A stretch of 38,027 nt of DNA, taken from NCBI GenBank assembly GCA_012963885.1, contig DTUY01000341.1:1-38027 (forward strand), read 5' to 3'. This document shows, piece after piece, positions 1,838-2,385 of this stretch. The stretch comes from Candidatus Poribacteria bacterium. Lineage in GTDB: Bacteria > Poribacteria > WGA-4E > UBA9662. The notes under the pieces are model-generated. The model was not told where the DNA came from. It saw only the letters and a program-made list of their open reading frames with translations, and did no database searches. Position 1 is the stretch's first letter; the number at the start of each line of letters is the position of its first letter. Both the position numbers and the translations under genes were made by a program.

Positions 1838-2317
1838 GTGAAATGTGATTGGTTTTGGATGCGGGAAGCGTTAAGTTTGGCACGTCGTGCTGCACAGGCG
1901 GGAGAGGTTCCGGTCGGGGCAATTGTTGTTAAAAATGACATAGCCACTGCGCGTGCATATAATACACGGCAACAATCCAAAGATCCGACGGCACATGCAG
2001 AGATTTTGGTGATCCAACGAGCCTCAATGGTTACTGGTGATTGGCGTTTAATTGATACAACACTTTATGTTACCTTGGAACCATGTCCAATGTGTGCTGG
2101 TGCAATTTTGGCAAGTCGTATTCCGCGAGTTGTCTATGGTGCTGCTGATTCAAAGGCAGGCGCAGTTGATTCGCTCTTTGGGCTCCTAAACGATCGTCGG
2201 CTAAACCATCAGGTTGAGGTTAGATCAGGTGTTTTGGCCGAAGAAAGCAGCAGGTTATTGAAGTCATTTTTTGGTAAGCGCAGACAGCAGATCTCGGAGA
2301 GGTGCGAGAGTGGTTGA
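1838..2317 (+). CDS. tadA: tRNA-adenosine(34) deaminase TadA
   Basis: TadA converts A34 of tRNA-Arg(ACG) to inosine so that one tRNA reads CGU, CGC and CGA. The zinc and catalytic residues are present: H53-A-E55 in TAHAEI, and C83/C86 in EPCPMCAGAI. The length of 159 aa is normal. GTG at 1838 is preferred because the FWMREALSLARRA segment aligns with the family N-terminus; ATG 1859 is the alternative. Neither has a ribosome binding site. The gene sits between tRNA-Arg(ACG), its own substrate, and tRNA-Ser(CGA). The last seven codons (ERCESG and stop) overlap the 5' end of that tRNA by 22 nt, so the protein C-terminus is encoded by tRNA sequence. Confidence 0.95.
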   Translation: MKCDWFWMREALSLARRAAQAGEVPVGAIVVKNDIATARAYNTRQQSKDPTAHAEILVIQRASMVTGDWRLIDTTLYVTLEPCPMCAGAILASRIPRVVYGAADSKAGAVDSLFGLLNDRRLNHQVEVRSGVLAEESSRLLKSFFGKRRQQISERCESG

Positions 2318-2385
2318 ATCGGGCAGTCTCGAAAACTGTTGTGCGTGAAAGCGTACCGTGGGTTCGAATCCCACCCTCTCCGCCA
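2296..2385 (+). tRNA. tRNA-Ser (anticodon CGA)
   Basis: Class II tRNA. Acceptor GGAGAGG (2296-2302) pairs with CCTCTCC (2375-2381), followed by G and encoded CCA (2383-2385). The anticodon loop CTCGAAA gives CGA for UCG. Its first 22 nt are also the end of the tadA reading frame, including the TGA stop at 2315-2317. Confidence 0.96.

Follow-up and report, generated by a model that had tools for sequence, protein, structure and literature searches.

The tadA stop codon lies within tRNA-Ser(CGA) in a Poribacteria genome: a recurrent overlap, probably tolerated, whose stop RNase P could remove

In the window (the whole stretch of DNA that we analysed, 38,027 nt from a Candidatus Poribacteria bacterium) the end of tadA and the beginning of the tRNA-Ser(CGA) gene have 22 nt in common, and the stop codon of tadA (UGA, 2315-2317) is the D-loop UGA of the tRNA, at nt 20-22. 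In our reading, which we hold to be probable, this stop codon is removable by RNase P on a transcript shared by both genes, and the overlap is mainly a tolerated by-product.

The overlap and its surroundings

The gene tadA (1838-2317, + strand) encodes the tRNA adenosine(34) deaminase; its product scored 187.9 bits against the NCBIfam model NF008113 (equivalog cut-off 150) and matched the structures 1z3a and 2b3j. It likely starts at a GTG, with an in-frame ATG at 1859, and its frame ends in ...QQISERCESG and the UGA. The tRNA gene is on the same strand (2296-2385, including the CCA), and both ARAGORN and Rfam place its 5' end at 2296. Thus, the 3' end of the tadA frame lies within the tRNA: the shared stretch, 2296-2317, encodes part of S153 followed by ERCESG and the stop on the protein side, and forms the 5' strand of the acceptor stem and D-arm on the tRNA side. 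The earlier note had placed the tadA stop inside this tRNA, and ARAGORN, Rfam and the ORF list bear this out with exact coordinates. It had also called tRNA-Ser(CGA) the only UCG-specific tRNA seen, and we found a single copy and no other CGA anticodon among the 44 tRNAs of the genome, a count that comes from scoring 150 of 376 first-look candidates. Among the 36 tRNAs of the genome with at least 330 nt of upstream sequence, it is the only one entered by a frame of at least 100 codons (171 codons); three others are entered by frames of 60-80 codons.

Both genes belong to a cluster on the + strand in which all the tRNAs were found by ARAGORN and Rfam: tRNA-Ser(UGA) (1545-1632), tRNA-Ser(GCU) (1651-1740), tRNA-Arg(ACG) (1752-1825, without an encoded CCA), tadA, tRNA-Ser(CGA), tRNA-Ala(CGC) (2446-2520), tRNA-Ser(GGA) (2533-2622), the bacterial large SRP RNA (2645-2911; RF01854, 160.3 bits), dnaX and ybaB. 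An SDR oxidoreductase gene (157-921; ORF list and profile match) precedes the cluster near the window start. The distance from tRNA-Arg(ACG) to the likely GTG start of tadA is 12 nt, and 3' processing of this tRNA would leave tadA with a 12-nt leader that has no obvious Shine-Dalgarno sequence. On the - strand, a 60-codon antisense frame (2220-2402, GGEGGIRTHGTLSRT...) runs across tRNA-Ser(CGA) and the end of tadA and is likely a spurious ORF.

Regarding RNA structure, the acceptor stem of tRNA-Ser(CGA) is also formed in the predicted precursor fold. A leader-trailer helix around the tRNA (2278-2400) was considered as a regulator and rejected because it is not conserved through the window's family, f1: 14 pairs were predicted in the window and 18 in the f1 locus L002, and just 2 in the f1 locus L007.

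Transcription and RNase P processing

In the 80 nt that precede tRNA-Ser(UGA), the best sigma-70-like site matched the consensus at 11/12 positions or better in 59 of the 61 loci of the order, as against 0.2% of shuffles. In the window this predicted promoter is TTGACA-18-TAAAAT with a TG before the second hexamer (1501-1530, + strand, 11/12). Sites of at least 11/12 were found neither between tRNA-Ser(UGA) and tRNA-Ser(GCU) (0/61), nor in the 150 nt before tRNA-Ser(CGA) (0 of 60 loci), nor in two later gaps of the cluster (0/56 each). Between tRNA-Ser(GCU) and tRNA-Arg there were two in 61 loci (0.0% of shuffles), which could be a second promoter in some relatives, still ahead of tadA. From tRNA-Arg to tRNA-Ser(CGA), including tadA, we found one in 59 loci, the window's own. 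A conserved site before the first tRNA and none ahead of tRNA-Ser(CGA) is the pattern from which we predict that the tRNAs, tadA and tRNA-Ser(CGA) are on one transcript; this evidence consists of consensus matches and is not a mapped transcript. A terminator between tadA and tRNA-Ser(CGA) was also considered and rejected: the only terminator-like site in 900-3100 is within tadA (1 found, 2.1 expected).

Separate transcripts of tadA and the tRNA, which the earlier note had named as a result that would speak against it, are not favoured by this comparison. They would require that a promoter inside tadA supplies most of the tRNA-Ser(CGA), so that the tadA message is seldom cut. Such a promoter-like site does exist in the window (1935-1963, 11/12) and could be functional in this species. 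Nevertheless, its second hexamer is encoded by Tyr-Asn codons, the site is not kept in L002 or L007, and TATAAT occurs at this position in 2 of the 55 loci that have the motif. Furthermore, promoter sites are not enriched over shuffles either within tadA (59 loci) or across the 150 nt ahead of tRNA-Ser(CGA) (60 loci). We therefore give separate transcripts a small chance.

On a common transcript, which is likely, maturation of tRNA-Ser(CGA) by RNase P would remove the stop codon from the tadA message. We infer the following order of events. Ribosomes trailing the polymerase would reach the D-loop UGA and release complete TadA; next, the tRNA would fold and RNase P would cut at 2295/2296. The 5' piece would then end at 2295, after codon 152 and two bases, without a stop, and the ribosomes left on it would run to its end and be rescued by tmRNA/SmpB. 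Thus, each transcript would yield TadA only until it is cut. This agrees with the earlier note in that the cut would leave a nonstop tadA message. However, its further statement that one transcript cannot give both products was too strong: translation can precede the cut, and therefore one molecule can give several TadA proteins and then one tRNA.

The genome has the genes for such processing and rescue: RNase P RNA, tmRNA, SmpB, an RqcH-type protein and three RF-1-domain matches. Since these are encoded, a cut tadA message would likely be handled by rescue. The tmRNA gene is apparently cut by a contig end, and its tag stretch is the same as that of L141 (tag ADTELALAA). RNase P RNA gave no match in genome G002, which is 80% complete, and RF-1 gave only one. 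Regarding the residues that would be missing from a protein made on the cut message, alignments with the three best solved TadAs reach residues 149, 153 and 154, and most of the TadA relatives listed have their C-terminus a few residues at most from the RR at 148-149. Therefore, these residues would lie at or beyond the edge of the TadA core.

Conservation and recurrence of the overlap

The order comprises 72 genomes, and we examined a strong TadA locus in 65 of them (30 + 35 loci), the other 7 having weak matches or none. The neighbourhood is highly conserved: tRNA-Arg(ACG) is the last same-strand tRNA upstream of tadA in 64 of the 65 loci, and tRNA-Ser(CGA) is the first tRNA downstream in 60, while none was found in 5. 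Within the order, only the three f1 genomes (the window, L001, with L002 and L007) have the stop inside the tRNA, always at one identical offset; the earlier note had proposed to check the junction in close relatives, and L002 and L007 have exactly the same stop position. In the other 57 loci the tadA stop is 0 to 176 nt ahead of the tRNA. Eight of these loci, from families f4 and f2, have the stop, 6 nt and then the tRNA, in a frame that differs from that of f1, so an indel is a likely origin of the overlap. As side observations in the order, five loci (L012, L025, L164, L167 and L185) have an extra ARAGORN tRNA-Ile(GAT) between tRNA-Ser(UGA) and tRNA-Ser(GCU), of 91 nt in L012 and L025. At L153 (G000:C2:2051-2324), a 3.5-kb contig carries another tRNA-Arg(ACG), dissimilar to the first, which may be a contaminant of the draft genome.

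In the phylum, 80 of the 84 genomes searched gave a match, and we examined 7 further members of the class with strong matches, omitting G072, G073, G075 and G076 (weak matches only) and G078 (no match). Three of the seven, all from family f7 (L214, L215 and L217), share both the window's stop position in the tRNA and the tail ERCESG. In L213 and L219 the stop is 14 and 15 nt before the tRNA, and in L216 the tadA frame leaves the contig end. In L218, from family f5 of the same class, the whole tRNA-Ser(CGA) (477-567) is nested in the tadA frame, with the stop just past the tRNA, although this contig looks inverted at its start.

Outside this group, among 80 named loci (two of them order members), tadA is followed by a tRNA within 200 nt in 13 and overlaps it in one, L101, from an uncultured Clostridia. 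A search of 60 genomes related to that of L101 gave 59 with a match, and the best 30 loci were examined, L101's own included. We found tRNA-Ser(CGA) in 29 of these 30, and in 8 of the 29 (L220, L221, L222, L225, L227, L230, L239 and L249) there is a second type of overlap, in which nt 8-10 of the tRNA form the tadA stop and the tail reads ...ER. Altogether, tRNA-Ser(CGA) was located in 95 of the 102 Poribacteria and Bacillota loci examined, and in none of the remaining 7; tadA overlaps it in 15 of the 95 and ends before it in 80.

Among the 120 best matches of each protein-search list, 12 of 13 f1-like clusters carry the tail ERCESG or ESCRSG, so in f1 the overlap is kept in all three genomes examined and in these 12 clusters, down to about 62% protein identity. 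For two of the 12 (P0001 and P0002) the source is unlisted, as it is for the window's own protein, so that at least 10 come from other sources; P0030, a chimera-like row, was excluded from the count. The thirteenth cluster, P0010, is 89% identical and ends in ...GKRR, which means that the overlap was lost or that the record is cut. In the same lists, 11 further TadA clusters end in ER; for 6 of these, the same tail occurs at loci checked as DNA, and some of the other 5 may be chance endings. Two database TadAs of 203 aa (P0121 and P0122) have an N-terminal extension that by eye resembles a translation of tRNA-Arg(ACG); the annotation probably followed a frame that stays open across this upstream tRNA, which would make the extension an artefact.

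These independent genomes also exclude an assembly error as the cause of the overlap. One false indel could have removed a real stop upstream of the tRNA, as the eight f4 and f2 loci have such a stop in the other frame and the draft genome (420 contigs) shows 5.45% contamination. Nevertheless, the same stop position is found in two families (L002 and L007; L214, L215 and L217), besides the tail in the clusters from other sources, and therefore we consider this error hardly credible.

Tolerated by-product or tuned switch

The way in which the overlap arises points to tolerance. A tRNA-Ser read in one frame would supply a ready UGA a few codons in, and the true stop just upstream would therefore be dispensable and was likely lost more than once. 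All 14 partial overlaps seen as DNA (3 + 3 + 8) use the single frame with the early UGA. Furthermore, tRNA-Ser(CGA) begins with the same 29 nt as tRNA-Ser(GCU), which overlaps no ORF of at least 60 aa; therefore, coding need not have shaped the shared bases. The tail varies with the tRNA sequence (ERCESG versus ESCRSG). The overlap changed at least 5 times among the 29 scored Bacillota loci and 8 times in a joint quick tree from which L218 was left out, although the resolution of these trees is weak (in the Bacillota tree, 4 of 27 inner branches are starred) and the changes do not distinguish gain from loss. Repeated gain or loss, together with a sequence common to a tRNA-Ser that does not overlap, favours a tolerated by-product over a tuned switch. 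On the other hand, the persistence through f1 and the recurrence in two phyla are a point for selection, as a purely neutral trait need not persist in this way.

Selection could have acted on the balance between translation and RNase P, setting TadA against tRNA-Ser(CGA) or capping TadA, as Mukai proposed for SelB and tRNA-Sec. The architecture is the same as in that published model, the overlap is kept through f1, and it recurs in the Bacillota and in another Poribacteria family. However, the overlap is absent from most loci with this neighbour, the trait was gained or lost repeatedly and the tail follows the tRNA sequence. In addition, tRNA-Ser(UGA), which can read UCG, is also encoded, and we know of no functional tie between TadA and tRNA-Ser(CGA). 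We consider such regulated exclusion unlikely. The proposal of the earlier note that the overlap sets a ratio between enzyme and tRNA finds no support either: the substrate of TadA is tRNA-Arg(ACG) and not tRNA-Ser(CGA), the overlap has the base sequence of an ordinary tRNA-Ser, and 80 of the 95 loci do without the overlap. Equally doubtful to us is the bolder idea that RNase P is a one-shot off-switch of tRNA-tadA-tRNA operons, selected repeatedly in two phyla, in which the tRNA UGA is the sole stop and maturation ends TadA synthesis on each transcript.

The overlap has parallels in known systems. In animal mitochondria, the excision of tRNAs makes the message ends and protein frames run into tRNAs. 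The tadA cluster is similar in its tRNA-bounded messages and in the frame entering a tRNA, but it belongs to a bacterial genome of 6.8 Mb, and we know of no completion of stops by polyadenylation in this host. Bacterial operons of tRNAs and a protein gene, such as tRNA-tufB of E. coli, are also transcribed together and processed by RNase P; to our knowledge, the protein frame and the tRNA usually have no bases in common there. The tadA cluster resembles tRNA-tufB in the shared transcript, predicted in our case, and differs in that its frame shares bases with the tRNA.

The closest case is selB/selC. According to Mukai 2021 (PMC8124441), the tRNA-Sec gene lies within selB in Alphaproteobacteria, Gammaproteobacteria and Nitrospirae; among these cases are partial forms whose stop is inside the tRNA, for example at nt 46-48 in Dyella and Luteibacter. 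A nonstop mRNA made by RNase P is proposed there, as a proposal whose experiments are left to the future, and mitochondrial cox1 of Armadillidium with a nested tRNA-Lys is cited. The two overlaps are alike in that a same-strand tRNA covers the 3' end of a protein gene, the C-terminal extension is translated from the tRNA, the overlap is conserved in some relatives and lost in others, and the same nonstop mRNA is proposed. The window has the partial form, with the tadA stop at a conserved position of the tRNA; the nesting of the whole tRNA, the main form in Alphaproteobacteria, is absent from it, as only 22 nt are common. The differences from selB/selC are the gene pair, the stop at nt 20-22 (or 8-10 in the Bacillota), an enzyme without known action on the overlapped tRNA, whose substrate is encoded upstream and outside the overlap, and a message placed among several tRNAs behind one conserved promoter-like site. 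Among the literature matches listed on the phenomenon and on tadA operons, mostly without subscription journals, we found no report of a tadA/tRNA-Ser overlap and noticed only PMC8124441 as a bacterial precedent. Thus, the gene pair and the stop position are new, whereas the kind of overlap is already known from selB/selC.

If our reading is true, a housekeeping message would lose its stop codon each time its own transcript matures, and rescue by tmRNA would be a routine part of tadA expression. Some TadA C-termini in the databases (ERCESG, NQER) are translated tRNA. The recurrence in distant bacteria speaks for a quirk that packed genes tolerate, more than for a built-in switch, and it also offers natural matched pairs, with the stop a few nt before the tRNA or inside it, in which the competition of RNase P and ribosomes for the same RNA could be studied.
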